Shown here: positions 10,148 through 61,044 of the stretch, in pieces
How positions within the stretch are numbered: position 1 is the stretch's first letter
How the letters are laid out: each line of letters starts with the position of its first letter
NCBI GenBank assembly: GCA_951230915.1
Contig: OX579634.1
Location: 52,837,570-52,901,569, forward strand
Source: Antitrichia curtipendula
Taxonomy: Eukaryota; Streptophyta; Bryopsida; Hypnales; Leucodontaceae
Direction: 5' to 3'
DNA: 64,000 nucleotides
Translations under genes and position numbers: made by a program
The notes under the pieces: model-generated
Told to the model about the DNA's origin: nothing
The model's input: the letters and a program-made list of their open reading frames with translations, nothing else
Database searches by the model: none

Positions 10148-10485
10148 GAGGAATTCTCGACTGTTTTGGAGAATCACTCCAGCTGATTACTACCTATATT
10201 GGATGAGGTCAGAGCGTAGTGCCAGTGATAGTACAAAGGAAAATATTTCATATTTGGGCAATGAAACATGTAGACAATGGTTACTTGCATATAGTTAGCA
10301 AAATTATCTGGAACTATTGTGATGTTTGTACAGGAGGTCCTCAATTTGGTGTAAGCAATGAGATTTTACATTCTTCCATCTCCATGTGATTGGCTAAGTC
10401 CTCCACATTCATCATGAAACGGAGGAATTTCAACACTGAAGTTGGGAATTGGAGATTTAGAGATCATCTGATGATTGTCAACCCA

Positions 10486-11085
10486 TAGCATTAGTAATTG
10501 ACATTTCCAACTCTGAATTTGAGAATTGGACGTCTGGAGACGTTCTGATGTCCTCCCCTCTACATTACACATTCATTTGACAATTCCAACACTGAACTTG
10601 GGAATGAGAATAGGACGTCTGGAGACTTTCTGATGTCCTCCCCTCTACATTACATATTCATTTGATAATTCTAACACTGAACTTGGGAATGGGAATTGGA
10701 CATCTGGAGACGTTCTGATGTCCTCCCCTCTACATTACATTTTCATTTGACAATTCTAACATTGAACTTGGGAACAGGAATTGGACGTCTGGAGACGTTC
10801 TGATGTCCTCTCCTCTACATTACACATTCATTTGACAATTCCAACACTGAACTTGGGAATGAGAATAGGACGTCTGGAAACGTTTTGATGTCCTCCCCTC
10901 TACATTACATATTCATTTGACAATTCTAACACTGAACTTGGGAATGGGAATTGGACATCTGGAGACGTTCTGATGTCCTCCCTTCTACATTACATATTCA
11001 TTTGACAATTCTAACATTGAACTTGGGAACAGGAATTGGACGTCTGGAAACGTTTTGATGTCCTCCCTTCAACATTACACACACT
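10486..11085. repeat. 85-bp tandem array with embedded palindrome
   Basis: Seven units of 85 bp. The anchor (A)TTCATTTGA falls at 10571, 10656, 10741, 10826, 10911 and 10996. Each unit contains a degenerate palindrome (GACGTCTGGAGACGTTCTGATGTC type), a variant of element I's motif. A diverged first unit precedes the array. Element II has a single copy at the matching place (about 36080-36145), so the array is a local amplification in element I. Confidence 0.85.
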
Positions 11086-11195
11086 GATAGTTGTATAATA
11101 AAGAAAGGTGGTGGAACCACTATTTTGTCATTTAGATGTATGAAAAAATAGGATCTGAATACAAATAAAGCATTGTTTGCAATTTTTAAGGTAGT

Positions 11196-11615
11196 CTATT
11201 TCAGATCTGCTAGTTGGATGTCCCTAATATGTACAAGTGGGGGTATTATAGAAACCTTCTAGGTTAGGGGATCCACATCAGAGAATACAAGGGTGTGATT
11301 TCTAAGCAAGTTGCGCCATGCCATTTTACTAAAGAGATATGAGAAGAGGTCGCCTCTATTGGGGTACTTGTATGAACTGCCTGATAAGTCACAACCTTTA
11401 ATAAGAAATAACATTGCAATAAAATTCCTTGGAAGTATCCGTGGAAGGAGCTCGTCCAATTTAAAAGTGGTCATATTCGACCAGATACCAACGGAAGTCT
11501 TCGACAGCATAAAACCAACTAAATTCTGAAAGGCCTCAATCTGTTTGTTTTGTCAAACATCCACGACAGCAGCCTCAGTGCACAAAACACCTGTCAATAC
11601 CAGGATCACCACTCT
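11196..11615 (-). pseudogene. HAD-like protein L1 (second FCP1-like module), element I copy
   Basis: The exon starts after a CTTTGCAG acceptor (exon base 11615). It begins with VVILVLTGVLC, which occupies the place of the HAD nucleophile strand, and continues to SVGIWSNM, matching the FWSS(A/M) strand of the FCP1-like neighbour. The element II homologue at 36314-36748 aligns along the whole exon. In-frame stops interrupt the reading (a TGA after VVDV, a TAG after DVDPLT), and the frame then continues with IIPPLVHIRD, as in the homologue. The catalytic DxD is absent even in the better copy, so this is probably a non-catalytic HAD fold. It lies just downstream of the FCP1-like gene on the same strand. 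Confidence 0.5.
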
Positions 11616-12181
11616 CTGCAAAGACTCACGTGACAACACATGGTCAATTGTGAACGGACGACCCATATTCAATATGAGTGCTCCTGGTGTAGATTACCAA
11701 ATACCACTGATTAGAAGGGTCCATTACAGAGCATAAAATTCACACATTCAATGTTCACCAAAGAGAGCACATTACCAGTACATTTCCCTTATTGTCCTAA
11801 CCCAAATTCTGACAGCAGTGTGCAATGTTGTTAAAATTTCTGACAAAATCTGTAATTCAAAATACTACATGTTGACATTCATCATTGCTCTTGTCTAATA
11901 TTCCAAATTCCACCCATGTAACTGAGGAACTTGCGTTTGAACTGCCAACTAAATTTTAAAAATGACACAAACACAACATTATTGTCGTCGTCCTAATATA
12001 TAAAATAGTTGTAAGGTAGTTTTTAAAGAAAGACATTTACAACAGTTATAGATTGATACAAAATGTCAGAGAGTCTGCACCTAGTCATATCTACAACAAT
12101 ACTGTGTCTAGGGATTAAGAAAATCCTGAAAAGAGATCATCTGGAGCACCCTAGATGAATGTAACCTAACATTCCACAGTC

Positions 12182-12790
12182 TTAATACTTTACACCCTTC
12201 AGAACCTGGAACCCTACACTACCCATTGGATCCACCGGCAGTTGGCACCCGGAAAGTGGGTTGGCTTTGACATAAACTTGCACAACTTTGTTGGACTTTA
12301 AAAGACCTTCAAGCCAAGGCTTCAGAGATCGTGACAAGAAGTTATCGCCTAAATCACCAGACCAGGTCGCTGGGTGAACAGCATTGTCAACATAGTTCAA
12401 TAAGTTCTTAATCGGACTGTCATCAACCAAGAGAACATTCTCTATAGACTGAACTTCGCCCATCTCAACCAGGGTTGACAAATCCTTCAAAAATACTGGT
12501 TTATTTGGTTCAGCTGGGTCTCAGTATGATGACAAAGTGCACGAAGCCTGCAAAAGATATGTGCATTCTGTAGGGCCAAAAGCGGTAGCCGACAGCATCT
12601 TCGCTAGCATTTTGCACATGTTTTTATCATGCATACTGCTCCAAAATATTATTCGTACCCTACGGAAGAGCTAGTCAAGGAAGTTCTTGAGACCGGGTCT
12701 CCGAGTAAAGCCAGATTTGTTATCTTTATAAGTACAATGAATAAGAAGTCCGTTCAAGTCCAGAACTAGGACGTATTACTTTATAGATAC
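12182..12790 (-). pseudogene. FCP1/HAD-like phosphatase-fold protein L2, element I copy
   Basis: The frame shows the FCP1-homology order: VLVLDLNGLLIH (HAD motif I), RPGLKNFLD, IIFWSSM (motif II region), then KPVFLKDLSTLV and NVLLVDDSPIKNLLN (motif III/IV region). Such proteins (NIF/FCP1 family) act on phosphorylated RNA polymerase tails or other phosphoproteins. Here the second Asp of DxD is Asn (DLN), as in several plant FCP1-like proteins, so catalysis is doubtful. In-frame stops lie at 12776-12778 (TAA), 12671-12673 (TAG) and 12521-12523 (TGA). The TAG falls where the element II copy has Trp (FFDWLHRH, codon 38689-38691). A family palindrome (about 12136-12158) lies just beyond the 3' end. 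Whether this is a separate gene or the last exons of L3 is open. Confidence 0.65.
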
Positions 12791-13399
12791 CTTACTCGAT
12801 ACAGTCTTCTTCGTCAATGAATCCGAAATAAGATTTGAAGACAACAAACAAAGGAACCAATTAGAGGCAGAATACAACTGTTACAAACAATGAAGGTCCT
12901 AGTAGAAAATAAATTAGTAGAAGAGGTCACGAGAAGCACCTTTTGGGACACCCAAACTAGCCTCCTTCTCCACCTTCAGCACACTAGTCTCCTTCTCCAC
13001 CTCCAGCACACTAGGCTCCTTCTCCACCTCCACCACGCCTACTCCACCAGCCTCGTCTTTCCCATGATTACTTTCCACCATCACATCATCCTTTTCCTCT
13101 AACTCGTCACCCCGAATCCCCTCCTCTACCTCAACGCCAGTCACCTTGTCACCTGCAACCTTCTATTTGATGATTACGTCGGGGGTCACAACATTCAACA
13201 CTCCTACGAAAGAGTCATGTACCACAGTAATGGGAACATCCAAGAAGACAAGGAAGTACACAAAAACATGCATTCCTGAGTAAAATGAAACAAAATGGAA
13301 CTTATTCATCACCTGATATTATAAATGCAGTCAAAGCTATCCAGTTTATTCATACAGTCAAAATGATACAGAGTTGTAATGCTAGCCCCTAGATCTAAC

Positions 13400-13981
13400 C
13401 TTCTCTGTGACATTTGCATCGTTATGACGGCCCAAGTTGGGACTCAATGGGCTCAAGTCTCCTAGAGTGTCATCCCGAATAGGGCCAGACATCTCCGGAG
13501 CACCGATTTCAATTGGGTTCATCTGGAGTGTTCCAGATGAACTAGGCGCAGCTCCATCTTTCCTCGCTCCATCAACATGGCCCTCCAGTCCTTCAGACTC
13601 AGCAATAGTAGAACCCGGAGTGTGAGCACCCTAACCAGTACTTGGGAAAGATAGTAATGCGGATGCAGCATCCCTTTCCTGTTGAATAACCTCAGCTACG
13701 GCATCCACCAAATCACAAACAACCGGATTCCCTGAGGACGCATTACCCTCCTCTGCTCGTCTCTCCGACTCCATAAATCTTGCATTCAGGTTTTGCTTTG
13801 GTTGACCCGCCTTCTTACGATTTAAAACTGGTAGGATATCTTCCACCAACTCCAAAAGTTTCCTCTTCTTCTGCTTGCTTGTTCCCTCTGTCATGACTGC
13901 AGAAAGTGGATTTTTGGCAGTTTTCTTAGAAGATGGGTCCTTCAACTTCTTAGGCGGCAATGATGGTGGAGGAGAGGACAT
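13400..13981 (-). pseudogene. L3 gene, lysine-rich linker exon, element I copy
   Basis: The exon starts after a TTATTGCAG acceptor (13982-13990 side) with SSPPPSLPPKKLKDPSSKK and continues lysine-rich (SKQKKRKLLELV, a likely nuclear signal). An in-frame TAG at 13631-13633 interrupts it, after which the same frame runs on (GAHTPGSTIAESEG) through the palindrome at 13519-13540, read as SSGTLQM. The element II homologue (38945-40423) is much longer but has the same layout, with SSGDLTM at its own palindrome. This is low-complexity and probably disordered, linking the N-terminal modules to the FCP1-like part. Confidence 0.5.
13519..13540. promoter_or_regulatory. Element I palindrome inside coding sequence
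   Basis: TCATCTGGAGTGTTCCAGATGA is a near-perfect inverted repeat within the linker exon. The homologous codons of element II (39745-39766) carry the other palindrome. The role is inferred: a binding site for an element-encoded protein. Confidence 0.6.
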
Positions 13982-14080
13982 CTGCAATAACAATGTCTTG
14001 AATATGAGACTAGGTCCACAAACACTCTCCAAACGAACAACTGGAGCAATCCAGATGCATGAAGGTCATGCAACACTCAC

Positions 14081-14305
14081 CTCGGGTGACTTGCGCTTTG
14101 GAGGCTCATCATCGCTCTTTTCAGAGTATTGTTCCCCGATGTTCTCTGGAGTTTCCGTGTCACTGTTTGAGAGTTCCTCAATATTGGGCGGTTGTTCTTA
14201 CCGGACGTTGACTGCAAATTGCTCCTGCATTTGTCTGGCAGTAATTATCCCAGCTTTCTCCGCCTCCGCAAAATTAAATACTTCCAACACCTTCACCCTT
14301 CTCCA
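14081..14305 (-). pseudogene. L3 gene, small exon, element I copy
   Basis: Acceptor ACTGTACCAG at 14306-14315 and donor GTGAGT at 14075-14080 bound the exon. It reads VKVLEVFNFAEAEKAG...ARQMQEQF, which aligns with KVLEVVNSAEVANESQ...ARQMWDHF in element II (40546-40785). A TAA interrupts after VNVR and could be CAA changed to TAA. The 99-bp intron that follows (13982-14080) contains a family palindrome at 14038-14058. Confidence 0.5.
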
Positions 14306-14417
14306 CTGGTACAGTATAACGATCGACAGTTAATTGACAAGATAACTAAGAATACAAGATGACTAAGACTACAATATAAAACAACAATAACAACCAATTT
14401 CCATCGTTTGGTCTTAC

Positions 14418-15767
14418 CATTCCCAAGTGAGTGATCTCTGGTCCCCCGTTCACGTTAACAAGCATCATGTCATCTCGTATTAACCCTCCGAATAATACAA
14501 GTGTAGAGTTTGCGCTCAGATAGGGCACTCAGCGACGCCTCCATGAACTGTTTACATCAGCCGGGATTGCCTCCGAATTGTATACAGAACTATATACTAG
14601 TTGAGAGCGGAAGTAGTAGTTAAAGCGGCTTTGCGTGCTTTCCGATTCATTGTATTCAAAGCAGAAAATCATGAACATCACGAATTCGCTTTCAGTGGCA
14701 GTTTCTGGAAATTCGTGATCGCGTCCAGCAATGTAATGAATCACGTGCCAGTCCCAAATTTTGTGTGCGATCTCCAACTTCCGTTTGTACAAGTGAGCCA
14801 CTACTTCATGGAATCCTTGAGCATCCGTCATGAGAATCGTTGGTGACCGAACAAAGGTGCCCTTCTTCTCCACGCTTTTCAGAGCATCAAAAACTCGTCA
14901 CAGATTCCGGTCCTCCAAAAATTTTGACCGCGGTCCCGTAGCTGTGGCTTCAAGCAAATACCAGATCTATTAGTGTCTCATCCCTTCGCCACGCCATGCT
15001 ACAATGTCCTGTTGCATTAGAATGCCGCTGATGTTCCACATATTGTTGTCCATGATTTTTGATAGGTACGTCTCTGCAAATCCTTTCTCCATTGCCTCTG
15101 CCATCGCAACTTGGGCTTTTGCCATGATGAATGCATCCCACATGTCATGCACAAATTTTGAACAGTCTGCGAGATCAGACGTCTTGTTTAAGCTCTTTGT
15201 CCAACCTTCAAGCCAAATCTTCCCTGCATCCATTGCCATGGCTCTATCCACCCAAAGCTGTAATTCGGGACGTCCAAACTTCATCTCAGTAGCAAATTCT
15301 TCGAACTCAAAATCGGGGTATGGAACGTATTCCGGCTTCTTGCTGGGAAGATGGTACTGCCGATAATGAAGCATCATCTCATTCTTCATGGCTCGGATGT
15401 ATCGTTCTCTAGCGCCACCTTCCGGTAGGGTCTCCAGTGTCGGGCCACCGCCTTTTCGCTTGGCCTTCGATCTTTTCACGGTTATCTCCTTATTCTGCAC
15501 CCAATCCGCAAGGAAGTTGATATCCTCCACCCGCAACCCGTATAGAGTCTTAAAATCAAATAGTATTAGACGCTTCCGCAATCCCTTTGCTGGATCGGGT
15601 AATTTGTCCTCATTGCCCGGAAGAATGTATTGCACATATTCCCTCTCAATCCTTACCTACTTCTTTACGTCAGCGTCATCCTCCAAAAACAACAACGGGA
15701 TTTTCGTTTCACTTGTGTCGGTCCCTTTGACGGAGGTGAAAATAGTTGAGATCAATGGAACGAACTC
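14418..15767 (-). pseudogene. L3 gene, long central exon, element I copy
   Basis: Bounded by acceptor GCATTCAG (15768 side) and donor GTAAGA (14412-14417). The order is PLLFLEDDADVKK, FDFKTLYGLRVEDINFL, MKNEMMLHYRQYHLPSKKPEY, LWVDRAM, KFVHDMWDAF, SKFLEDRNL and LVNVNGGPEITHLGM. All blocks align with element II (58596-57697 plus 41346-40888). In-frame stops include 15657-15659 (TAG, opposite a Trp codon at 58485-58487), a TAA-TAG pair near 14980-14985, 14898-14900 (TGA, opposite Arg) and 14529-14531 (TGA). The family is not recognised; the GLR-x-EDINFL block recurs in both copies. The following 312-bp-side intron carries three palindromes. Confidence 0.55.
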
Positions 15768-16079
15768 CTGAATGCATAATGATACAAAATTAGTTTTACA
15801 TCTATGTTATTGGTCGACATTAGAGAAAAACAAAACAAGCAGCTGGAGTAAACCAGATGACCTGTTTGAGAACTATAATCCCAAAAGCTATAATGCCACG
15901 AGCAGAAGCAGTGGAAACCATCTGGATCACTCCAGCTAATAGCAACGATGGATTGACATTTGAAACCATCACGGACTTACAAACTCGACCATCAGGAGTG
16001 ATCCAGATGGTTGTAGCGTGATCTCCATTTCTAACAATATTTTCTAAAAGAAAAAAAATATAGAGAAGAAAAAACATAC
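15768..16079 (-). other. Intron of L3 with three palindromic motifs
   Basis: A GTATGT donor (16074-16079) and a CAG acceptor (15768-15770) define a 312-bp intron. Motif copies lie at about 15840-15860, 15919-15939 (CATCTGGATCACTCCAGCTA) and 15990-16011. The homologous element II intron (58597-58860) holds two copies of the other motif. Confidence 0.6.
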
Positions 16080-18450
16080 ATTATATGCATGAGTGTGTGG
16101 TCGGCCGCCATACGTTGGTTGTGGACTTTCCATCTCCCTCCATTTGATTCTCGCGGTAAGTAATTGCGTGAGAAATGATTGCTCTTTCTGTTCACCAACG
16201 ACGTTCTGGTTTAGAGCTCGGGAGAGGTGCATCACGTTCGAAAATTTGCTTTGCGGCGCAAAGATTGGGATGATTTTAAAGCAAGAGGCTTCATGACATC
16301 GGATTCAGGAATTTCTCCGTTTTTGACAAGTTTCTTGTAGGCCTCCACTGTGTGTTGTCCCCCAATAATATAATAGTGGGTTTGTCTTGTGATGGATTCT
16401 AGCTTTGGACAGGTATCAAAGTACGTTGCCCTCCCTTTTGTGTCGTATGGCCCGATTTTTATAGGAAGCACTGTAATGACTCTCCAGTCAGCGTTAAAGT
16501 CAGTTTCCAAGCGTGCCCTGTTCATTATACTAGGTAATCGTGTATCCTCAATGCCTCGATACACTAGCCTTCCTTCAGGGGCCCTGTGAAGATAGTCGAA
16601 GTGCACTCGCAGGACGTCACCAGCGACGTCAACAAACGGTTGTTTCTTCCACTTGTACATGCAGTCAAAGTGAGCTTTGTACAATGCCTTCATCACTTTC
16701 AACTGCTTCGAGTCGAGCTTCTTTATCTCAGCCTCTTTCATTGCAACGCAAACGGAAATGGTCAGCTTACTGGCAGCATCTTCTGTAGCCGTCTTGTCTC
16801 CTGGTGCTCCGGTCAAGGACCTCTGGGTGATTGCATGAAACACCTGTACTATTTGTTGCGTTTCGTCACACCTTAGACTTTTTGGCCATAACTTCTATGT
16901 TTTAGCTCCAAATAAGTCAAAATTTCTAGATAAGATACTCATGACCATTATATACCTTTTCTGATTTTTGAGAATTTTTCAAAAATAATTCACTATTTTT
17001 AAACAGCCCCCGATATTTCTCAAAATGGGTGATTTGGGGTTTTTTAGCTTCGTTTGTACTCAAAAAAACGAATTTTGAGCTGAAATTTGGAGAGGATGGT
17101 CTCTTAGTAGACTTATAGCTACTGTCCAAAGGAATTTCAAAAATACTTATTTCTATGTGGTGTGGAAGTCCACAAAAATAGCTTCTTTCTGCATTTTTCT
17201 TAGAGTTATGGAACATTATTTTGGTGAGTTTTTTGGTCAAATCTCATCACCAAAATGTTTTCTCAAATGAAAAAATTTTAGATTTAAAAAAAAAAAAAAA
17301 TCCTATTTTTTACAAATTAAAATGTCAAAGTGGTATATTCTTCAGTAGAACTTTGGACATAGAATTTCGGTGAAAAAAATACCACTTTTGACATTTTAAT
17401 TTGTAAAAAATAGGATTTTTTTTTTTTTTAAAATCTAAAAATTTTGCATTTGAGAAAACATTTTGCTGATGAGATTTGACCAAAAAACTCACCAAAATAA
17501 TGTTCCATAACTCTAAGAAAAATGCAGAAAGAAGCTATTTTTGTGGACTTCCACACCATATAGAAATAAGTATTTTTGAAATTCCTTTGGACAGTAGCTA
17601 TAAGTCTACTAAGAGACCATCCTCTCCAAATTTCAGCTCAAAATTCGTTTTTTTGGGTTCCAAATCGTGCAAAAAAACCCAAAATCATGCATTGTGAGAA
17701 AATATCGGGGGCTGTTTAAAAATAGTAAATTATTTTTGAAAATTACCCAAAAATTAGGGGAGGTTTTAGATAGTTATAAGTAGCTTTTCTATAAATTTCA
17801 ATTTATTTAGAGCTAAAGAAAAAAAGTTATGGCCAAAAAATAGGTCAGCACCTATGGGTGTGACATATGGTTTTAAGTGTTTCGTGCAATCACCCCTCTG
17901 TTTCTTTCCCTTTTTCTTTGGCAACGGTGTTGCAGCTGCGACTGGTACTGTACATTGCTTGGGATACCTTGCTTTGGTTGTTGTCTTGGCGAGCCTCCTC
18001 AATTAGGCTCCAAGTAATTTGCATTTCCTTCGGCGTCCACTTTGGGATGCCGCCTTTGGGATTCAGTAACGTTTGTTCCACCAGTGATTTGCACTGACTC
18101 AACTCCATCGAGCTGTAATAAAGGATTAGGCCATAGATTCTTGTACTATCAATTCCGGGCACTTTCTCCTCAGTGACTAGGAGCGCAGTGTTGTTGTCAA
18201 GACCCTGCATTTCTAGAATGTCAAGGCCGACGTCGTGGTGCACCTTCATACCACTCATGAGTTTTGGAGTAATTCGCATGCATCCATCTTCATCCTTCTT
18301 CCACTGGATCCCCCATTCACTGACTTTGCTTAAGCAGCGATAGACCGCCATTGGGTGCAATTTCCCATTGTAATGAAATTGATGAACCCATTCGTCACAA
18401 AAGGGTCTGAGTTTAATTGGGCACGCGTCCTCAGGTTCATCTTAAAGAAA
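16080..18450 (-). pseudogene. L3 gene, N-terminal exon with ParB-like segment, split by a hairpin element
   Basis: The upstream part (17895-18450) reads DEPEDACPIKLRPFCDEW, LDILEMQGLDNNTALLV, YGLILYYSSMELSQCKSLVEQ. The downstream part (16080-16825) reads LTISVCVAMK, GRLVYRGIEDTRLPSIMN, WRVITVLPI, HYYIIGGQHTVEAYKKL, and LNQNVVGEQKEQSF. All of it aligns with the single element II exon 58861-60190. The ITVLP...IIGGQHT-x-EAY arrangement resembles the ParB/sulfiredoxin-type fold (normally a DNA-segregation or nucleotide-binding domain); that assignment is tentative. The two parts are separated by the 16826-17894 insertion in the lysine-rich linker between modules. Confidence 0.55.
16826..17894. 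mobile_element. 1,069-bp long-hairpin foldback element
   Basis: The two halves are inverse copies almost end to end, around a centre near 17350. The ends read GGTGATTGCATGAAACAC and, in reverse, GGTGATTGCACGAAACAC. A 6-bp target duplication CCTCTG flanks it (16820-16825 and 17895-17900). It splits the L3 exon, and the element II homologue confirms the empty-site reading. The open frames in both arms (16926-17240 and 17476-17697) are mirror copies of one sequence and not a gene. The transcript would be a near-perfect hairpin and so a small-RNA source. Confidence 0.85.
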
Positions 18451-18519
18451 CTCATCACTACATTCAACCAAAAGCTAGTTAGATGTGTTGGTGGCTATCG
18501 ACTGCACCTAGCCTCTTCA

Positions 18520-19580
18520 GTGAGCTGGAGCACTCCAGATGACTGACTACGAGCAAGCTTTATGCATCGCTAATCAATTGCTAATTCCAATCGACTTAGA
18601 ATTCTACAAGTAGGTTATGAACCACTCCACCTGCGGTGACCTATTTATACATTTGGAACACTCCATATGACTGATCAATGGACAGTGCCTAATGCATGTG
18701 CAATTCAACGTTATTCCTAGTCGTCGAATAAATGTGCACCCCACTCTGCAATGCTAAGTAAGTTCACGAAAAACTCACTCAGACTCTCATCTGGATCAGT
18801 CCACATGAAATAACATCTTGAATCATCTAGATCACTCATGATGACTAATTGAGACCGTGTATGAGGCCTCATGTCTACGCGATAATCGTATCCCACCAAT
18901 AAGTTTGCATCTAACCTTGTTATTTTAGGTGCGTTAAGGCGGAACTTGCTCAGTGCTTTCAAATTCTCAGACTTTTAATTGGATCACTCTAGCTGAGGTA
19001 TTATTTTCAATTATCTAAAGCACTCTAGATGACTCATTGTGTCCATGCTTGAAGGTGGAACTCGCTCAGTGCTTTCAAATTATGTGACTCTCATCTGGAT
19101 CACTCTAGTTGAGATAACATCTTCATTTATCTGGAGCACTCCAAATGACTCATTGTGAACATGCTTGAAGGTGGAACTCGCTCAGGGCTTTCAAATTAAC
19201 TGACTCTCATCTGGATCACTCCAGCTAACATATTATCTTCAATTATTTGGAGCACTTCAGATGATTCATTGTTTCTAGGCTTGATGGTGGAACTCGCTCA
19301 GTGCTTTCAAATTAACTGACTCTCATCTGGATCACTCTAGTTGAGATAACATCTTCATTTATCTGGAGCACTCCAGATGACTCATTGTGAACATGCTTGA
19401 AGCATGAAGATTGCGTTATATTCCTATCTAACAAATAAATTTGCCTCCGACCTACTTTTATGTGGGTTATTGCAGATTCTGCCTGGTGCTCCAAATTTTC
19501 AGACGATCCTCTGGATCACTTTGTATGAGATTATTGTAGAAATCTAACTACAATAGTGCATCTGGAGGCTTTGAGGTCCG
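18520..19580. promoter_or_regulatory. Palindrome cluster 5' of the left module of element I
   Basis: At least fourteen copies or half-copies of the CTGGA(T/G)CACTCCAG palindrome occur here, for example 18523-18543, 18788-18808, 19093-19113, 19208-19228, 19323-19343 and 19360-19380. They lie just upstream of the minus-strand L3 gene. The element II homologue (60247-61044) has a similar cluster of its own motif. Confidence 0.75.
18930..19420. repeat. 116-bp tandem repeat carrying two palindromes per unit
   Basis: The phrase GG(T/C)GGAACT(C/T)GCTCAGTG recurs at about 18938, 19054, 19170 and 19287, giving a period of 116-117 bp. Each unit has one copy of the CTGGATCACTC form and one of the CTGGAGCACTCC form. 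Confidence 0.8.
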
Positions 19581-20902: not shown

Positions 20903-21105
20903 CACTACAAGAGAAAGGGGTGTTTTAAGTAGTGTCCTAGACATCACGTCTTTTAAGTAATGTCTTTTAAGTAAGGTTTTAAGTAAAATTTTACTAAAAA
21001 GATTGTCTTTTTAGTAAAATTTTACTTAAAACCTTACTTAAAAGACATTACTTAAAAGACGTGATGTCTAGGACACTACTTAAAACACCCCATTCTTGTG
21101 TAGTG
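20903..21105. mobile_element. CACTA-type MITE copy 1
   Basis: A 203-bp perfect-looking hairpin that starts CACTACAAGAGAAAGG and ends with its inverse (CTTGTGTAGTG). It is flanked by the 3-bp duplication GCT (20900-20902 and 21106-21108), as expected for CACTA/EnSpm elements. It has no coding capacity. Confidence 0.9.
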
Positions 21106-21231
21106 GCTGTACAATGGAGCTTGCGGAAAAAGAGTGCACATCGGAAGAGGGAGCTACCATCGGGAGGAAGACAGGTTGAGCAGGAGTTGATGCTCAAGGC
21201 TCCCACATAATGGCGCCGTCCCTGCCATGAT

Positions 21232-21316
21232 TACAAATGAATGAACTTCATTCATTTGATTAGTGGGGGACTTGGGGGGGTTCTCGAGAAGTCAAATGAA
21301 TGAAGTTCATTCATTG
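21232..21316. repeat. Twin palindromes
   Basis: AAATGAATGAACTTCATTCATTT near 21234-21257 recurs as AAATGAATGAAGTTCATTCATT near 21295-21315, separated by a G-rich spacer. They could be the ends of a small element. Confidence 0.5.
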
Positions 21317-22012: not shown

Positions 22013-22015
22013 TAA

Positions 22016-27597: not shown

Positions 27598-27599
27598 AC

Positions 27600-41650: not shown

Positions 41651-41659
41651 CGGGGCAAA

Positions 41660-44505: not shown

Positions 44506-44513
44506 AGCTGCAA

Positions 44514-44523: not shown

Positions 44524-44650
44524 CCTTCCCCGCCTCATTTGTCTTCGCCCTGCATACTCTCAGCCTTCCATCTCTTCATTGAGCTGGTTGTGAGCGTTGT
44601 GCGGGGTCTACTTGATTGCCAAGTGGAGGATTTCGCTTTTTTCTACAAAA

Positions 44651-49440: not shown

Positions 49441-49447
49441 TATTGTA

Positions 49448-50682: not shown

Positions 50683-50684
50683 TA

Positions 50685-51771
50685 CATTCAATTAAAAAAG
50701 AGTCCCTTGTGCCAAGTATTCCAAAAAATGAATCCCTTTACATGAAGAACAAACTATAACTTGTAACTTCTCATTGTTCTAAGACAAGAATGAAATAAAA
50801 AATCAATAGGAATATGAATAATGGATTAAAAAACAAATGGCATTGAGTTCGGAACTTTGGATGGAAGAATTTGTTTATGGATGAAGCAAAAGTGATAAGA
50901 AAGGGAATGATTCAACAAATCAAAAATGGCAATGATTTAGGATGGAAGAGTTTTTGGAACAAAGCAAAGAACAAATATAGGAAAGGGAATGACTAAATAA
51001 AAAAAGATTGGCATAGACTTGGAATAAAAGAGTTTAGGAATTAAAGAAGGAAAAAAATAGGAACGTATATAAAAATAGAGAATCAAATGATTCTACATAT
51101 AACTATTGGCATGCAATTGGAATTAAAGAGTTTTAGGAATTAATGAAGCCAAACAAAATAGGAAAGGGAATGGTGGAACAAAAATAAAATGGCATTGAGT
51201 TGAAAACAAAGTGCTTAAGGAGTTCATGTAGCCAAAAAAACTAAGGGGCATTGAGGTGGAATGGAAGAATTTTAGAAATGAAGCAGAAACAAAAACGAAA
51301 AAAAAGAGAATGATGGAACAAATAAATTATGGCTTTGAATTGAGGTGGTAGAACTTCAAGAAATAAGCAAAAATGAAGTAGGAAAGGGCATGATTCAACA
51401 AACAAAGATCAGCATGGTGTTGGAAGAATACTACAAAAGAGACTTGCTAAGTTTTGAAGCAAAACAAATTAGAAAAGGAGATCATTCAACAAAACAACCC
51501 AAAAAATATGAATTGGGATGGGAGAGTTTTAGGAATGATCCAAATAAATAGGGAAAGGAATGATGGAACCAAAAATGAACATTTGGCTTTGATTTGAGAT
51601 GGAAGAGTTTTAGGAACAAAATAGAAAAAAGAATGATTCAACCAAAAGAAAAAAAATTAGAATAAGTTGGAATGGGAGAGTTTTAGGAATGAAGCTCAAA
51701 AAAAAGGAGAGAGAAAGATCCGACCTCGAATGAATGGCACAAACTTGGGATAGGAGAGTTTTCCTAATACC
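50685..51771. repeat. Non-coding stretch with degenerate internal repeats
   Basis: Third block of the GGAATGATTCAACAAA / GAGTTTTAGGAATGAAGC repeat of the hAT element, about 50800-51770. No gene seen. Confidence 0.65.
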
Positions 51772-52010
51772 TTTCATCACAACGAAGGGGACATGCTCTT
51801 CCATGGAGTTTCTTCCAAATCTTAGGCCGTGGAGCTCTTTATTCGGCATCTTGCTTTCATTGTCTTGTCAGAATTTGTTGAGGCTAAGATTAATGCTTCC
51901 CCCGCTCTAAGGAAAAGGCGGTTGAAGGATGTCAAACACAAGCGCATTTCAAAGTCATGCTTCCTGGGCTGGACGAGTACGTCCCCGCCCTGCCTTCGAG
52001 TCCCCGCCCT
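51772..52010 (+). repeat. Second copy of the ~230-bp direct duplication
   Basis: Near copy of 49158-49390, followed by a much larger GC-rich array. Probably the arrays and their left flank were duplicated together. Confidence 0.8.
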
Positions 52011-52617
52011 GGAGTCCCCGCCCTGCCTTTGAGTCCCCGCCCTAGAGTCCGCGCCCTGCCTTCGAGTCCCCGCCCTAGAGTCCCCGCCCTACCTTCAAGT
52101 CCGCGCCCTGACTTTGAGTCCATTCCATGGAGTCTGAGATTGAGCTGCGCTCTCTCAAGTTCCTCCATTTGTGTGAATTGTCCGCCCCGGAGTCCGCGCC
52201 CTGTGTCCGCGCCCTAGCACAATCCATTGAGCAAAAACATTGGGGAGTGAAAGCCATTTTCTTTGCCCACAAATTTGGGGGCGTGACGACATTTAATGTT
52301 CCCCTTTTTCTATGAAAAGGAGGGACACAATCTTCCCAGACCATTAAGGATGGCGAAGGTCAACGTACTTTTCGATGCATCCCCGTGAGCACACCTGCAT
52401 TTCTGTACTGGAGTCGCGCCTTGGAGTCCGCGCGTTCGAGTCCCCGCCCTGGAGTCCCCGCCCTGTCTTCGAGTCCCCGCCCTGGAGTCCCCGCCCTGTC
52501 TTCGAGTCCCCGCCCTGGAGTCCCCGCTCTGCCTTCGAGTCCCCGCCCTGACTTAGAGTCCCCGCCCTGACTTCAAGTCCGCGCCCTATACTTTGGTGAT
52601 GAAGACGTCCGCGCCCC
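51981..52617 (+). promoter_or_regulatory. GC-rich motif arrays 4 and 5, upstream of the hAT transposase
   Basis: Copies of GAGTCCCCGCCCTG and the variant GTCCGCGCCC alternate at 51981-52212 and again at 52411-52617, with CTTCGAGTCC spacers. The arrays stop just before the TATA box at 52631. Confidence 0.8.
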
Positions 52618-52630
52618 CTAAACCGCTAAG

Positions 52631-52639
52631 TATATAAAG
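52631..52639 (+). promoter_or_regulatory. TATA box of the hAT transposase
   Basis: TATATAAAG, 268 bp before the ATG at 52899. The downstream leader resembles that of the RING gene. Confidence 0.7.
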
Positions 52640-52898
52640 GAAAGGAAGACCCAACATTCCCCACATTTGTCACCTGGCCTCTATTTCTTGGACTTCAATT
52701 CATTTTGAGCTCCTCGTGAGTCTACTTGGGTGGCGGATGGCCCTAGTTTGCTGCTGAGGTGATGTCAAAATCAGTTCAAGCAGTGGAGTAGCGCTAACTG
52801 CTGTTACTGATACTGTGTTTGGTATATCTTGGATCCTTTTAACTTCAATATAAAGGAGGAGGAAGACGGAAGAAAATATCCTTGGATCGTTGAACGCA

Positions 52899-55800
52899 AT
52901 GGCAAGTCAAAGGAAGCAGACCAAGGAATGGGAGCTGTAGCTTCAGTTTACGGAGAATGGGGTTAAAGTGACTTGTGTTTTCTGTGCTGGGACCTTCAGT
53001 TACAAACGTGAGCGTGCTTTTGCACACTTTGGATATGGCTCCAAATTGGAGAGGTCAATTTGTCGAAGTATGCCTCGTCCAGTGCGACATAGATTTGCCA
53101 ATTGTGCAGGATTTGTCCCGCTACGAACCGATGTCGGGGACATGTATGAAGGAGAACCAATTCAAAGTGCGCCATCTAGAGCAACTCCTCTTGCAAGTTC
53201 AAGTGAAGCCACTGAAAATGAAGTGACGGGTGGGATCAATGGTGGAAGAGCGGAAAAAGGGGCAAACGTTTCAGAAGGAATTGATATTCTACAAACGTCA
53301 AATAGTCTTGTTGGATTCAATTCTACGAGATCTGGATCATTACGTCAACAACGCATGGTGGACGCATTCAACATTGCAAAGAGGAAGGAGTTGGATGAGA
53401 AGTGGGCAAGTTTTTTCTATGAAGCGAATGTGCCATTTAATGTGGCAAGGCATCCAGCCTTCATTGAAGCGGTGAGGGCAACCTCAGTGGCGAAGTTTGA
53501 ATACAGTCCACCTTCTTACCATCAATTTAGGACTAATTTGATTGAACCGAGGAGGTTGCAAATTGAGAAGCAGATTCAAGAGAAGGTTGGATTTGCTGTC
53601 AAGCACTACGGGGTGTCGATATGCACCGATGGTTGGGATGATGTCAATCGGAGACCCCTCATGAATGTGATGATGTCATGCCCCACAGGTGATGTATTTT
53701 TGGGGTCAATTGATACTACCTTGCAAAAGAAAACCATGCGCTACATATCGGACCAAATGAACGTGTACATTGAGAAGGTGGGTCCCAAATATGTAACACA
53801 AGTGTGCACAGATAATGCAGCAAACATGCTTGGCGCATTGAAGGACATCACTAACACATACCCGCATATTTTTGCGCAAGGCTGCATGGCACATGCACTA
53901 GATCTCATGTTGGAAGACTGGGCCAAAGTCCAAGAATTTTCCGATTTAATTGCCAGGGCAAAAAGATTGTGCCAATACATTCGAAACCATCATGCGACCA
54001 TGTCGGTTTTCCGCGAGTTGAGTCCGAATCTGCAACTCGTAGTGCCTAGCGAAACCCGCTTCGCTTGTAATTTCCTCATGTTGCAGCGATTGGTGAAACT
54101 CAGAGGAGTCTTGGAGCGGTTGAATAACCACCCACGTGTTTTAAATTTCTTTGATACTCTAAGGAATGAACAAAATGGACCGCAAGCAGCTACCGCTTCA
54201 CGTAATGTCAAAAGAACCATTGAAGATGTGGCTTTTTGGCAACGGTGTGTGAATTACGTGTACATGACTGAAGACGTATTGAAGGCTTTGCGTGTGTTTG
54301 ATGGACGAGAACCAGCCATGGGTCGGGCGTGGCTCGTAATGCACAATTTGCGAGGGCATGTGTTTTCTTTAAGAGAATCACCTTTCAGCTTACGTGATGA
54401 CATAGCAGTCATTTTGGAAGAATCTTTCAGTGCAAGATGGCACATGGTTTTTGAAGATACACACTACGCAGCGGCCTTTTTGAATCCATACCTCTTGGAT
54501 AACGTGGCGCTCAGGGAAGATCGAACTGCCCTACGTGCATTGTACAGAGTCATCCGCAACATGATGGGGAACCTGGGTGTCAATTTTGATGATGTGATGG
54601 CGGAATTAACAGAATTTGAGGAGGGTATTGGACCCTACAGTCCAGCTGAGACACCCAACATCCGTGCGACACAAATGCTTCCCCACCAATGGTGGCACAG
54701 GGTTGGAGATCGGGCTCTTTCGAAAATTGCCGTGCGTGTTTTATCCCTCACGTGTTCCGCCAGCTCCTGTGAAAGGAATTGGAGTATGTATTCCTTTGTT
54801 CACAATAAGATCCGAAATCGATTGGCCCCTGAAAAGGCAGAGTCCCTGGTATATATTTATACCAATAGCCGTGTACTTCGCCAACGACCAGGAGCCGATC
54901 CAGTTCGTTGGTATGATGCGAATATGTACTCAGAGGATTCTGATCCAGATGCCCTTGGACCGATCCCGGTGAATGAACGCAATCGGGAATTTGACGCACT
55001 GCAATCAGAGGAAGAAGAAGAGGTTGATGGGGAAGTCAACCGAGGAGCTCAAGAGTATCCGGCAAACCCAGATCTTTGGAGGCAAGGAGCCGATCACCTC
55101 GAAGAAGCGCGGAACTACTATGGAGATGCTGATGATGGAGAGGAGGAACTCCTTCGTGGTCGTAGGGGACCACCACCACCAAATCCTCGTCGTAGTCTTT
55201 CACCTCCACTTCCTCAAAATGAAGGGGTTGTAGAAGTCCCAGCTTTGTCGTCTTCTTTGGAGACCGACAATCCAAATGACGATAACGTTGATGATGGTAT
55301 TTCCCACAACAACAACGACGATGATGACAACCTCCCTCCAGGAAATGGCGGCGGAAATGGCGGTGGAAATGGCGGTGGAAATGGAAATGGTGGTGGAAAT
55401 GGAAATGGTGGTGGAAATGGAAATGGTGGTGGAAATGGAAATGGTGGTGGACATGAAAATGGCGAGAGAAACAAGGGGAGGAATGCGAATCCAAATCATG
55501 GAGGATCTTCTCACAATCGAGATGGCAATACACGCCCTACGGGAGTGGAACCAGCAACTCGTAACATTAGAGCTCTAGAAAGACAGCATGATAGAAACGT
55601 TAGAAATGCAAGAGTGCCACGCCCTTTTGCAAGAAATCAACCGGCTGGTAACATGAGAAGGCCTTTTGATCCAGAGCATGTGGACCATGATGATGTTTTT
55701 GCTTTTGTAGAACCACCCGAAGACATTGCCCCTGTACCGGCTCCAGTTGCGGGCCATCCTGCTATTTCTGAACATGGTACACAAGTGCCACATTCCCTAG

Positions 55801-56477
55801 ATCCATCTTCAGAAACAATTTCCAATGCCATCCAAAGACCTTCTCAAGAAGGATTAGGCTCAGTGGGAAATGTTGATTTGACTCTGCAAAGAGTTTCACG
55901 TGGTAGACCACCTGTGGCCCCTCGGCACTCCATTCATCATGAAGTAGGTCAATATCAACAAGCCCGTGGACGGACGAGAGGCCATGGTAGAGCTGCAGGC
56001 CGTGGAGGGAGTACAGGCCGAGGACGAACAGAAGATCTGCATATTGGAGAAGCATCATCGCCAAGGCATGCTAATCGTTCACCCCTTGGAATTGGAGCAA
56101 GAGATCCAAATAGGGTGATAGAACCGTTCCTAAGTACATACGTACCAGGACCTAGCCGGTCAACTCCGGCATTTGTTGTTCGAACAATTCTAGGTGGGCC
56201 TACTATAAATTCTGATGCAGAAGACCCCAACGCACAACGACACAAGAGGTTGAAGCGCAAACGTACTCATGGCCAAACAACTATAGAGCTTCGAAATGAA
56301 AACTCGGAAGTTGAGGAACATTGGACCACCGACAGTGGTGAAGCAGAAGATGAATATGACAGCAATGAAGATGCCAATGACGAGGCACCAGAGGATGATG
56401 ATGTTGTTGTTCGAGATGCTAATGCAGCGAATCCAAGTGCCCAAGAAGTTCGTAGGTCGAGTCGTTTGAATAATTGA
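52899..56477 (+). CDS. hAT-family transposase, very long, with an early TAG
   Basis: From ATG 52899 the frame reads MASQRKQTKEWEL, a TAG at 52938-52940, then 1,169 open codons to 56477. The pieces are a BED zinc finger (CVFC...H, 52974-53040), a DUF659-type region with the first catalytic Asp in CTDGWDD (about 53620), VCTDNAANM (about 53805), the GCMAHALDL signature, and the C-terminal dimerisation block SSCERNWSMYS (about 54755) carrying the Glu. All DDE positions are present. Beyond 54.9 kb an unusual extension of some 500 residues follows: acidic, a GNGGG repeat at 55345-55455, and a RRSSRLNN end. hAT transposases usually end after the dimerisation block. The TAG could be CAG-to-TAG. The next ATG (53070) would lose the first finger cysteines. 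Confidence 0.85.
55345..55455 (+). repeat. Gly/Asn-rich coding repeat in the transposase tail
   Basis: A tandem of GGAAATGGTGGT-type 12- and 18-bp units coding for GNGGG and GNGNGGG. It expands in frame and is probably disordered. Confidence 0.85.
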
Positions 56478-56886
56478 GGTTATTGAGTTGCATCGATGGT
56501 AGATCTCGGATCTTTAAGAGTTGAAGACAATTGTAGCAATTGGAAGAAATATAGACGAGAAGCCAAAAAAATGTTTTGGATAACCTATGAGAAACAGAGA
56601 AAGTGAGCGTATTTTGGAAATATAGATTCATTGTATTGATATTGTACTTTGCAATGCATGAATTTTATAAACTATTTTGGTTGTCACAAACATTGCAGCC
56701 TACCTGTATTTTTTTTGTGTATTTTGTATTTGATGGGCCTCCTGGAAACCTTGGTGGGGAAATCATGTAAAATACATTCCAGTTACTGGTTCTTTTTAAT
56801 GCAGTGGGGTCTCCTATTTGTTTCGAATTTTTTTTATACATATATATATATATATTGTAGAACACATAAATTTAATCCACCATTGC
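56478..56886. other. 3' flank of the hAT transposase
   Basis: AT-rich, with a (TA)n run near 56838-56856. No coding sequence. Confidence 0.5.
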
Positions 56887-57540
56887 CCGTCCGCGCCCTC
56901 CCACTCACGTTCAGGTCCGCGCCGTACCTGAAGGAGTCCGCGCCCTAGCGCGCTGAAGTCCGCGCCCTGCCTGTCACAGTGAAGTCCCCGCCCTGCTTGA
57001 AGGAGTCCGTGCTCTGACGCGCTGAAGTCCGCGCCCTGACTGAAGGAATCCGCGCCCTCGCTATCACACTGAAGTCCCCGCCCTTCTTGAAGGAGTCCGT
57101 GCCCTGACGCGTTGAAGTCCGCGCCCTGACTGTCACACAGAAGTCCCCCGCCCTACTTCGAGGAGTCCGCGCCCTGCTAGCCGAAGTCCGCGCCCTGCTT
57201 GAAGGAGTCCGCGCCCTGACGCTCACACTGAAGTCCCCGCCCTGATTCGATGAGTCCGCGCCCTGAAGCGCTGAAGTCCGCGCCCTGAATGAAGGAGTCC
57301 ACGCCCTGACGCTCACACTGATGTCCCCGCCTTGCTTGAAGGAGTCCGCGCCCTCACGCGCCGAAGTCCGCGCCCTGATTGAAGAAGTCCCCGCCCTAAC
57401 GTCCGCGCCCTGACTGAAGAAGTCCCCGCCCTAACGTCCGCGCCCTGACTGAAGAAGTCCCCGCCCTAACGTCCGCGCCCTGACTGAAGAAGTCCCCGCC
57501 CTAACGTCCGCGCCCTGACTGAAGAAGTCCCCGCCCCTGG
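56887..57540 (+). repeat. GC-rich motif array 6, subterminal right
   Basis: About thirty copies of GAAGTCCGCGCCCTG / GAAGTCCCCGCCCT in units of roughly 30-45 bp. The last part (57385-57540) is a clean tandem of about 38-bp units. It is the largest array of the element and lies 156 bp from its right end. Confidence 0.85.
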
Positions 57541-57696
57541 ATCCAGCTGTCCAAGCTGACGTGTCATTGAAAAGAATTCAACAACTTTGAGAAATTGAGG
57601 CCGTCCAGTTGGTCCGGACCGTCCGTCCGTTTGGTCCGGTTTGCCTGTCCGTCCGGGACGTCCGATGACCCTAACTCGCCCGTTATGACAACCCTG

Positions 57697-58596
57697 GTGA
57701 ATGGGTCGTAGCACTCCAAAGCGTCGAAGAATAGTCTCAACCTTCGATCCTCCAGAAGTTTTGCCCGTGATCCCAAATACGTCTGCTCAAAGAGAAACCA
57801 GAAGTACATGTGCGGCTTACTTCCATCCCGCTAAAAAACGACGTCGAGGTTCCTCAGAACACTGCTGAGATTCGTGGAGTGGTCGTTCAAGACTCTGCAT
57901 ATGTAGTTATCGGAGTATCCTTTCTCAAGCGCCTCCTCCACTCCAATGGTCGCTGTCGAACTGAAGTACGCCTCCCACATGTTCCGCACAAATTGCGGAC
58001 AATCGGCTGGGTTGATCGTCTTGTTAAGCCCCGCTATGCGATCCAGCAGCCACTTCGATCCCAAATGCGAATCCATGGCTTTGTTCACCCAAAGCTCTAC
58101 TTGCTCGCGATCTATTCCCTTCTCCTTCGCCAAGTCGTCCTACTCCGTTGCGGAGTATGGTTTGTACTCCGGCTTCTTGCTGGGTAGTGGATGCTTCCTG
58201 TAGTGTAGCATCAACTCGTTCTTCATCCCCTGAATGAGGCGCTCCTTGGCGCCTGCCGAAGCAAGAGTCGTGAGGGGTTTCAGGGTCTTCACCTTGGAGC
58301 TCTTCACGGAATTTTTTTTCTCTTCCACGAGAGTCACAAGGTAGTTGATGTCTTCTGCTCGAAGCCCATACAACGTCTTGAAATCGTTTGCAGTAAGGAG
58401 CTTGCGCTTCAGAGATCCGGTCTCATTGAGTGACCCCACAGTGTCCGGAAGCAACCCCGTTATGTACTTCTCCTCGATTATAATCCATCTGTCAACATCT
58501 TTATTGTCCGCGAGAAAGGCAAGTGGAATCTGCAGCTCCTTGTTGTCTTTCGCCTTCTGACCCGTGAAGATTGTCACAAGGGACGGATGAAATGCC
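57697..58596 (-). pseudogene. L3 gene, central exon of element II, part 5' of the hAT insertion
   Basis: Starts after a TTGAGCAG acceptor. It reads HPSLVTIFTGQ, IPLAFLADNKDVDRW, DFKTLYGLRAEDINYL, MKNELMLHYRKHPLPSKKPEY, VELWVNKAMDS, QFVRNMWEAYF and LEDRRLRLFFDALECYDPF. In-frame TAGs lie at 58140-58142 and 57831-57833; the latter faces a Trp codon in element I (14994-14996). It joins the part at 40888-41346 across the hAT element. Family unknown. Confidence 0.6.
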
Positions 58597-58860
58597 TGCT
58601 CAAGACCAAAATCACAATGGGACTATTAGTACAGGACCGTGTACACCATTGCAGCATCAGGGGATCTCACGATGATAAATTATTTTGGAGGAAGTCACCG
58701 TGTACTTCGGCAATTGAAGTGGACATTTCATTCTAGAGTAAGCAAACTCATGATCCTAGATTGAGAGCTACATTAGCATTAGGGGATCCCACGATATTGA
58801 GAATGAAGACTGCATTTAGCAGTGGTTCGACCAAGTGAGGGCATTTGACATCACTCTTAC
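58597..58860 (-). other. Intron of L3 with two palindromes, element II
   Basis: GTAAGA donor (58855-58860) and CAG acceptor (58597-58599). Motif copies at 58652-58673 (ATCAGGGGATCTCACGATGA) and 58776-58797. Homologous to the 15768-16079 intron, which has the other motif. Confidence 0.65.
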
Positions 58861-60190
58861 CAGGTACTTCTTGTCGTGTTGCCTGCCCATGAGTGTTGGT
58901 TGCGGGCTGCCCATATCTCTCCATTTGATCCTGGCGTTGATTAGTTGCTTTGTGAAGCACTGCTCTTTCTGTTCGCCACCAAGATTTTGGTTGAGGCCCG
59001 TGAAAGCAACAACACGTTACCGAAGTTCTCCTTCTTGGCGAAAATGGGTACTATGTTGAATGTCGTCGCTAACTTCTTGTCCGCCTCTGCTATCTCGCCG
59101 TCTTTCACCAGATTCCTGTACGCCTTTATAGTGTATTGCCCCCCTATAATGAAGTACTGAGTCCTTGCGCTAAAAATTGCCTTGTCGGGCTCCTCTTTGT
59201 AGAAGTCGGCCTTCTTCTTGTCCCCATAAGGACCGCGCTCGACAGGGAGCACCGTTATAACTCTACTATCTGAGTCGAAGTAAGGTGCGATTCTGGCCTT
59301 GTTCGTGATCCCTTCAAGGTGGCTTTGCTCTATCCCTCTGTACACGAGAATTCCGGGGGGAGCCTCGTGCAGGCAATCGTAGTGTACGCGGATGGGATTT
59401 CCGGCCACATTGCAAAATGGTTTCTTCCCCCATTGGTACAACTCCGTGAAATGGGTGTCATACAACTTCTTCATCTTAGTCATGTCCTCCTTGGTCAGCT
59501 TCTTGATTTTGCTCTTTTTCATATTCACGCACACGTGAATAGATAACTCGGTCCCTACCTTTCGCTTTTTCCCAGATGATGTGGCTTCTTTTGCCACCTC
59601 TTTGTCACCTAGAGCTCCGGCAGCTGACTTGCGCTTCTTGGCCTCCTTCTTTGGAGATGGTTTGGTAGGAGTACTATGAACAACTGGACCCTCGGGAGCT
59701 CCAACGTTGATCCGATCCTCGTCAATCAAATCCCACTGAGATTTCATTTTAGCCACACTCCAATGGGGTGATGAGGTGCTTCTACAGAACAGCAAGGATC
59801 TGTCTGTCATGGACTTGCACTTCGTCATGTTGAGCTTAGCATAGTCCATGATTAAGCCGTAAGTGATGAACTGGTCACTCTTCGGTATCTTCTCCTCCAC
59901 AACGACAAGAACTGTATCCCCATCAAGGCCCTGCATCTCCGTGATGTTTAGTCCAGCTGGTTTGTGCACCCTGTCGAAATGTCTCAGCATCGGAACGATG
60001 AGTGCCTTGCCTTCCTCTATCACGAACTCCAGCCACCACTCCGTGACGCTGAGGTTGCATTGGAAAACTGCCGCCGGATTGTGCTCTCCGATGTACTCGA
60101 AGGAATGTATCCAGTAGTCGACGAAGGCTGCAAGCTTCTTTGGGCTCAAGTCCTCCGGAATGTCCTGCATTTGTGTACCACTGCAGCATT
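58861..60190 (-). pseudogene. L3 gene, N-terminal exon with ParB-like segment, element II copy
   Basis: Open across nearly the whole exon: QDIPEDLSPKKLAAFVDYW, LNITEMQGLDGDTVLVV, ITYGLIMDYAKLNMTKCKS, a Lys-rich stretch KKEAKKRKSAAG, LSIHVCVNMK, ILVYRGIEQSHLEGITN, SRVITVLPV, QYFIIGGQYTIKAYRNLV. One base is missing near 58990; the other frame then gives GLNQNLGGEQKEQCF...ARIKWRDMGSPQPT up to a GTAAG donor. The ITVLP...IIGGQ(H/Y)T-x-x-AY pattern resembles ParB/sulfiredoxin folds, tentatively, which would suit a sequence-specific DNA-binding or nucleotide-binding role. No stop codon lies in the frame before the shift, so this is the best-preserved copy. Confidence 0.6.
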
Positions 60191-60246
60191 TCATATCATA
60201 CGAAGTATTAGATTAGAGTGTCATCAAAGCAGGTCCACATCTAGAA

Positions 60247-61044
60247 TCATCGTGAGATCACACGATGTCTGCTTATACTGTAGGGCTTCTATGAACTGAT
60301 TATTACGACACTGCGGCTTCGAATGGAACTGGAGAGTTCCTACGTGAACATCATCAAGGGATCTCACGATGCTATGACTATTACTGGTCGTCATCGTGAG
60401 ATCTCACGATGTGTCCTCATTTATACATCCGGGTTTCACGCTTTTGACCGAACTACTTATTATTCATGATCTGTTGGTCTACCTTGCTTATCAGGGGATC
60501 ACAAAATGCAATCACTATACAGGGAGCACCTCTCGTTGGACAGACTACAATAAGCTTTGGTGTTCTGGGATACCACTCATGTTCCGTTATCGTGAGATCT
60601 CACGGTAATCTCTCTTTTATTCTACAGCTTCAGTCTTAGGAATGAGATTCTACGGTTACGCGGTTGCGTTTTTAGTTGATTGAGTATCTTATTTCCCTCA
60701 TTTCTTTGATGTCTCTTGGTTATCAGGGGATCTCACGATGATTTGAATGTGAATACATTCATTGACAGGACATACTATGCAGATTAACTGTCCCAAATTT
60801 CCCAGTCAAACTACTCTAATGGATACTTCATCGTGGGATCTCCTGATAGGACTGACACATTATGCATCTCTCTGGTTGATGCCACGCCACGATGCGCGGT
60901 TATAGGGTTTTAACAACCTTAAGACCATGGGTTCTGAACTACAAACCTGTAATTATCGTGCATTCTTCAATCTGCTAATTCTAAAACCTCTACTGTTCTT
61001 GTCTAAAACTCTGTAATGGTAGTATGCTGAGATCTCACAACATA
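60247..61044. promoter_or_regulatory. Palindrome cluster 5' of the left module of element II
   Basis: Copies at 60247-60268, 60349-60371, 60391-60411 (perfect TCATCGTGAGATCTCACGATG core), 60489-60508, 60587-60607, 60720-60741, 60829-60849 and 61023-61042. The position corresponds to 18520-19580 in element I. Confidence 0.8.

Follow-up and report, generated by a model that had tools for sequence, protein, structure and literature searches.

Lineage-specific 20-bp palindromes in related DNA transposons of the moss Antitrichia curtipendula and a candidate element-encoded reader

How can a DNA-binding protein change its specificity when dozens of sites must change too? This open question is raised by a 64-kb stretch of the Antitrichia curtipendula genome (C2:52837570-52901569, hereafter the window; the genome comprises 400 Mb in 303 contigs), which contains two homologous DNA transposons, elements I and II. 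In both, a gene that we term L3 is followed on the minus strand by a gene with a NIF/FCP1-like phosphatase domain, and a DUF7869 gene, R, lies on the plus strand. The DUF7869 gene lies inside the terminal inverted repeats (TIRs) (Pfam; E = 1.6e-38 in a related copy) and R is a putative transposase. Each element is studded with its own version of a 20-bp motif. These motifs form part of a real site code that extends over several transposon lineages, from which we infer a reader and a function.

Motif I (CATCTGGATCACTCCAGATG, either strand) has 21, 26 and 33 sites in the window at up to 3, 4 and 5 mismatches, every one inside element I, and motif II (CATCGTGAGATCTCACGATG, either strand) has 9, 14 and 17, every one inside element II. 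At these thresholds, neither motif matches the other element or the remainder of the window. Dinucleotide shuffles (three per threshold) gave means of 0, 0 and 1.0 sites for motif I and 0 at every threshold for motif II. The two motifs have a common skeleton, CATCnnGAnnnnTCnnGATG (CATC nn GA nnnn TC nn GATG), and differ at the inner bases, which are mostly TG/CA in type I and mostly GT, AG or AT with AC, CT or AT in type II. Motif II is a full palindrome with GATC at its centre, whereas motif I consists of 8-bp arms (CATCTGGA/TCCAGATG) that flank an asymmetric and variable 4-nt centre (TCAC, GTGA, GCAC). An earlier, sequence-only reading of the window had claimed that each element is studded with its own palindrome, and this is what we find, with no sites in the shuffles at up to 3 mismatches; the description as a palindrome fits motif II fully and motif I only in its arms. 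The same reading counted over eighteen sites for element II, which is slightly too many for the window itself, but 9 more (at up to 5 mismatches) lie past its edge, which gives 26 over both joined parts of the element.

The sites are mostly outside genes, and at several aligned places (the left end, the small intron, the 3' end of the NIF gene, and the right end) the flanks of the two elements align while the motif is each element's own version. Both arms differ together between the types at these aligned positions. (The sites at the left and right ends are degenerate half-sites.) The sequence-only reading had already matched the left end, the small intron, the L3 intron and the L3 5' flank, and these correspondences are real; the 3' end of the NIF gene and the right end are additional. 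From the layout of element I, we predicted that element II would also have type-II sites before R and close to its right end. The prediction held: in the right half of element II, which was fetched later, 9 type-II sites at up to 5 mismatches lie before R (66168-66776) and close to the right end, and there is no type-I site.

Across the genome, there are 54 exact copies of motif I, and motif II is matched exactly at 46 places; the reversed-pattern controls gave 0 for both. To relate the sites to L3, we used a list of 101 L3 matches, fragments included, from the 99 of 409 candidates that were scored. Of the exact motif-II sites, 37 of 46 lie within 15 kb of a listed family-II L3 match (0.2 expected) and one lies near the L3 of another lineage, III, while none of the 37 L3 matches listed at 43-47% identity has such a site within 15 kb. 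For exact motif I, the list shows no L3 within 15 kb of 49 of the 54 sites because most I-type L3 copies are absent from it. Where motif-I loci were examined, family-I L3 was present in three of three (L006-L008, out of 8 excised). Ten of the 46 exact-II loci were opened; seven had a type-II L3 and one had the R gene of lineage III, which was new. Lineage III has 21 type-II-like sites at up to 4 mismatches and none of type I. Two full-length relatives in family I, c7 (19,952 bp) and c5b (19,587 bp), are about 95-97% identical to each other across the element; sites that match the skeleton (at most 2 mismatches of 12) number 34 inside c7 and 33 inside c5b, while their flanks, about 20 kb for each, contain 0 and 1. 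At another opened locus, L024, a second type-II-like site lies 580 bp from the exact type-II palindrome.

We also chose loci by their L3 protein (8 of the 101 matches, diverse in identity and frame length, and later 3 more of one class; n = 11). All 11 have palindromes of their clade's own type in the L3 5' flank, and 9 of them also have a site just past the first long L3 exon, which is an intron place by homology; shuffles at all 11 loci gave no sites. The palindromes at these loci are subtypes of CATCGTG, as in type IV (L035, L040 and L041; CATCGTGAGTTCCCACGATG) and type V (L036 and L044-L046; CATCGTGGGATCCCACGATG), or they are GACCGTGATATCTCACGGTC (type VI; L037-L039), which recurs as many as about 20 times, in units of 72-75 bp. 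In L042, a decayed sister of II, 5 sites resemble type II at up to 5 mismatches, and one match at 4 mismatches is type-I-like. Across the lineages, three codes are clearly different: CATCTGG, CATCGTG and GACCGTG. In a tree of L3 with seven labelled groups, the motif labels change 6 times, which is the minimum; shuffled labels changed 10.9 times on average, and 0 of 200 shuffles were as low. (The tree has 29 rows, of which 17 are labelled and 12 are database rows without a motif label. It covers 8 of the 11 protein-chosen loci, omits L006-L008, which are partial, and L044-L046, which were fetched later, and treats L042 as a separate group.) The sequence-only reading had argued that a recognition specificity changed and took its sites with it; this is supported by the two checks that it had proposed, namely the confinement of exact motif II largely to these elements and the co-segregation of motif type with the L3 clade.

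The distance between codes does not simply scale with the distance between L3 proteins, as the group consensus sequences are 43-57% identical throughout. Lineage III is informative here. Its right TIR resembles that of family I, yet it retains the type-II code despite an L3 that is just 54% identical to that of II (and about 46-51% identical to I-type L3, in the first exon). Thus, the sites do not follow the TIR, and L3 of lineage III is nearer to II.

Several properties of the motifs fit binding sites. After sites with look-alike flanks were dropped, the information content per site column was 1.71 bits in c7 (17 of 23 sites kept), 1.41 in I (19 of 26), 1.36 in II (26 of 26) and 1.56 in III (21 of 21), versus 0.11-0.20 bits in the flanks. 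Sites with unrelated flanks share just the 20 bp. At seven L3 loci (L042 is excluded from this count), the 8,625 bp of L3 exon contained 0 sites, as compared to 93 in the other 18,682 bp, and three further L3 loci had no exon sites. In c5b, with exon limits drawn from open frames, 1 of 24 sites lies in exons (8,293 bp) and the others lie in the remaining 11,294 bp. Many sites are intronic or lie in the 5' flank of L3, at distances of thousands of bases from the element ends, and others are subterminal or upstream of R.

We propose, with moderate confidence, that the palindromes are dispersed 20-bp sites of a dimeric DNA-binding protein that is encoded by each lineage, most likely L3, and that specificity and sites shifted together. 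Each lineage's reader would mark its own family only, by way of non-coding sites 5' of L3 and of R, in introns and in subterminal DNA. Its specificity would have shifted more than once (inner TG versus GT; outer CATC versus GACC; a centre of GATC, GTTC or variable bases), with the sites across each element being replaced in step. The purpose may be family-specific activation or anti-silencing, similar to that of VANC in VANDAL elements. The sequences show the sites themselves, their limits of 20 bp, where they are placed, how they were replaced at aligned positions, and that they co-segregate with the L3 clade; we infer that a protein reads the sites, that L3 is this reader, and that its purpose is of this kind. 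That related families have altered tags suggests that each of them makes a protein that reads its own DNA only. By analogy, VANC-like anti-silencing by L3 is plausible. More tentatively, and with somewhat less than even odds, L3 would be an independently evolved counterpart of VANC that frees its own family from silencing via the dispersed palindromes, in a superfamily of DUF7869 transposons in which at least three codes coexist and the site set was re-coded each time.

A number of observations weigh against this proposal. In family I, the sites show no more conservation than 20-bp blocks placed at random in the same flanks (2759 and 1907 of 5000 placements were as conserved or more), and in family II they exceed such blocks only weakly (378 of 5000). 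For eight of the 46 exact-II sites, the list gives no L3 within 15 kb, and two of the ten opened exact-II loci (L024 and L030) had nothing recognisable in 6 kb. One type-VI element was extended by 10 kb upstream and this revealed no R gene and no more sites. Near-copies inflate the tree statistic, so we put weight on the count of separate lineages and on the three clearly different codes; and the clearly distinct codes number just three because types II-V are subtypes of one code, with partial cross-match at up to 2 mismatches. As for the reader, L3 matches no Pfam family above the cut-off and shows no known DNA-binding domain. Its first 146 residues are modelled mostly at a predicted local distance difference test (pLDDT) score of 76-94, with two weaker blocks, and the fold matches are weak and PH-like. 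The relatives of L3 (29 in the widest search) have no informative names. L3 is 42-47% identical between families I and II, as compared to 79-88% for the middle of R, but because the genes of an element are linked, co-segregation alone does not identify L3 as the reader, and other element genes are still candidates. One gene diverges even more than L3: a small gene common to both elements (11262-11693 (-) and 36317-36811 (-)), which has no credible Pfam match and is 39.5% identical between c7 and II.

A serious, if less probable, candidate reader is R itself, through its N-terminal part, with a TnpA-like role in transposition and self-regulation. This part of R is 54-59% identical between family I and II/III and 72% identical between II and III, which share a code, and some of the sites are subterminal and upstream of R. 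L3 shows the same pattern of divergence, so the pattern in R is not decisive either way. What makes this explanation doubtful is the many sites that are intronic or in the L3 5' flank, far from the ends, and the type-VI loci: the element at L037 with L043 (C9:25107600-25121500) has about 20 tandem palindromes that adjoin L3, and the 13.9 kb that were read revealed no R gene. A different idea is that L3 is ParB-like: it would load at the palindromes as ParB does at parS, spread along the element, and shield or mark it. The best-conserved 30-column block of the compared part of L3 (the last two windows aside) contains IIGGQHTV, in which one may see by eye a likeness to the GxxR box of ParB/DndB-like folds, and DUF6551 has a weak sub-threshold match over this place in two L3 proteins (E = 0.061 and E = 0.029). 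As described in one source, the ParB-like GxxR motif includes an arginine (GxxR P) (PMC12704722). This arginine is missing from IIGGQHT (by eye), profile searches of PDB sequences found no ParB, and the structure model has low confidence at that part of L3 (the fold-match lists concern mainly residues 1-149). We consider a ParB-like L3 to be very unlikely.

The sites might instead bind host transcription factors, recruited by each lineage for its own expression, as promoters and introns do contain sites. However, the palindromes of all lineages are variants of a single skeleton, which points to one reader that evolved and not to several factors recruited separately, and exact motif II is rare outside the elements, so recruitment seems highly improbable. 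Finally, the motifs could be by-products of repeat turnover (tandem expansion and gene conversion), with no reader at all. Some sites do lie in tandem units (of 28, 79-85, 116 and 72-75 bp), and the lack of conservation of family-I sites above their flanks would fit. But turnover would have to account for sites that share nothing beyond the 20 bp and for arms that change together at aligned positions, and it is the least probable of these explanations. A dimeric reader encoded by the element, most likely L3, is the explanation that we carry forward.

The coordinates of the elements, their genes and the groups of sites are given in Table 1. The TIRs of elements I and II are about 30 bp and start with ATGCC; those of element I match over 31 bp at 97% identity. 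We read 4-bp target-site duplications (TSDs) in four copies (elements I and II, c7 with TAGG, and c5b with TTAT). L3 frames are broken in both window copies, and longer open frames are present in copies elsewhere in the genome.

Table 1. Positions in the window of the two transposons, their genes and their motif sites.
Feature	Position	Strand	Remark
Element I, whole	10118..33818		Termini ATGCC...GGCAT; 4-bp TSD ATCT
Element II, part in the window	35688..64000		True end ~71393 (window coordinates), past the window; TSD ATAC
Element I left TIR	10118..10147	+	
Element I right TIR	33789..33818	-	
Element II left TIR	35688..35717	+	Its right TIR is at 71364-71393, outside the window
DUF7869 gene R of element I	29549..33064	+	Putative transposase
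L3 of element I	14349..18441	-	Broken: stops, frame breaks, inserted inverted-repeat element
L3 of element II, 5' part	57686..60212	-	Resumes at 41346-40879 past the nested insertion
NIF/FCP1-like phosphatase-domain gene, element I	12185..12775	-	Two matching frames
NIF/FCP1-like phosphatase-domain gene, element II	38195..38892	-	One of two pieces under the Pfam cut-off
Nested insertion in element II, ~16.3 kb	41347..57685		Interrupts L3; absent in 7 of 7 related copies spanning the place
Type-I sites, 5' flank of L3	18522..19527		Part in 116-bp tandem units
Type-I sites, L3 intron	15840..16009		
Type-I site, small intron	14038..14057		Aligns with element II 40502
Type-I site, 3' end of NIF gene	12138..12157		Aligns with element II 38145
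Type-I sites, upstream of DUF7869 gene	29034..29442		Part at 28-bp spacing
Degenerate type-I sites, left subterminal	10531..11060		85-bp tandem units
Type-I sites, right subterminal	33144..33388		
Type-II sites, 5' flank of element II L3	60248..60848		
Type-II site, element II L3 intron	58655..58674		
Type-II site, small intron	40502..40521		
Type-II sites, left part of element II	36817..38164		Includes the site at 38145
Type-II sites	39428..39765		Sites at 39428 and 39746

The NIF/FCP1-type phosphatase family has a DxDx catalytic box. In these elements, the NIF/FCP1-like domain (12674-12775 (-), 38500-38892 (-) and L013:5961-6638 (-); E = 6.8e-13 in the c7 copy) has DLNG at the expected place, and because DLNG replaces DxDx, the domain may be inactive. 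Within the nested insertion in element II, an open frame of 1178 amino acids (52941-56477 (+)) has DUF659 and hAT dimerisation domains, and GC-rich short tandem repeats (GTCCCCGCCC-like units) occur in both orientations at 41500-41641, 44270-44502, 49364-49443, 51979-52595 and 56889-57538. Long near-perfect inverted repeats at 16879-17839, 20903-22016 and 24455-24698 are probably insertions that resemble miniature inverted-repeat transposable elements, and the first of these disrupts the L3 gene of element I. Apart from R, a distantly related DUF7869 fragment lies at 874-1914 (+) (E = 7.9e-17); it is 24-30% identical to parts of R and probably belongs to another element.

The interest of these transposons is that one genome hosts several lineages in which protein and site set match, and that these include full-length copies that closely resemble each other. 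If L3 is an anti-silencing factor, then sequence-specific self-protection of transposons would be convergent rather than a peculiarity of Arabidopsis, and L3 proteins would become candidates for epigenome-editing tools. Our search of open-access papers found no report of such a system, but parts of it have parallels. The fungal transposons with TET/JBP genes are described as DNA transposons whose accessory gene has a possible role against silencing (PMC12730594). The moss elements are also DNA transposons with a gene that may counter silencing; they differ in having dispersed sites and L3, and no TET/JBP enzyme was found among the element genes that were run against Pfam. ParB-parS resembles our system in its clustered palindromic sites and in the faint motif resemblance of L3, but L3 has no GxxR arginine, and here the setting is a eukaryotic transposon. 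In En/Spm (CACTA) elements, which have CACTA termini and a 3-bp TSD, the protein TnpA binds repeated subterminal motifs. An element protein (here a candidate) and many repeated sites, some of them upstream of genes, are common to both systems. In contrast to En/Spm, the sites here extend beyond subterminal DNA, the codes are lineage-specific, the termini are ATGCC, and the TSDs are 4 bp.

The closest parallel is with the VANDAL elements of Arabidopsis, whose VANC protein binds its motif and removes DNA methylation, although the moss elements are not VANDALs. VANDAL elements have a Mutator-type (MULE) transposase, and at the limits used DUF7869 is the sole Pfam family that R matches. VANDAL TIRs are degenerate, as one report indicates (PMC10398659), while the TIRs here are clear and about 30 bp long, and are accompanied by 4-bp TSDs and a DUF7869 gene. 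The motif of VANC is described, in two reports, as a short 9-bp sequence that is concentrated in its own family, differs in related families and is often in tandem (PMC5735166, PMC10398659). The sites here are 20-bp palindromes, and re-coding also reached many that lie outside tandem repeats. L3 has no match among known families; the likeness to VANDAL/VANC is one of layout. The sequence-only reading had drawn the VANC parallel, and in placement it fits: the VANC21 motif is placed in introns, intergenic regions and terminal non-coding regions, as one of these reports describes (PMC5735166), much as the palindromes are here. In both systems, a motif is repeated, often in tandem, in the non-coding parts of its own family, the element encodes the protein (VANC, and here the candidate L3), and related families differ in their motif together with the encoded protein.

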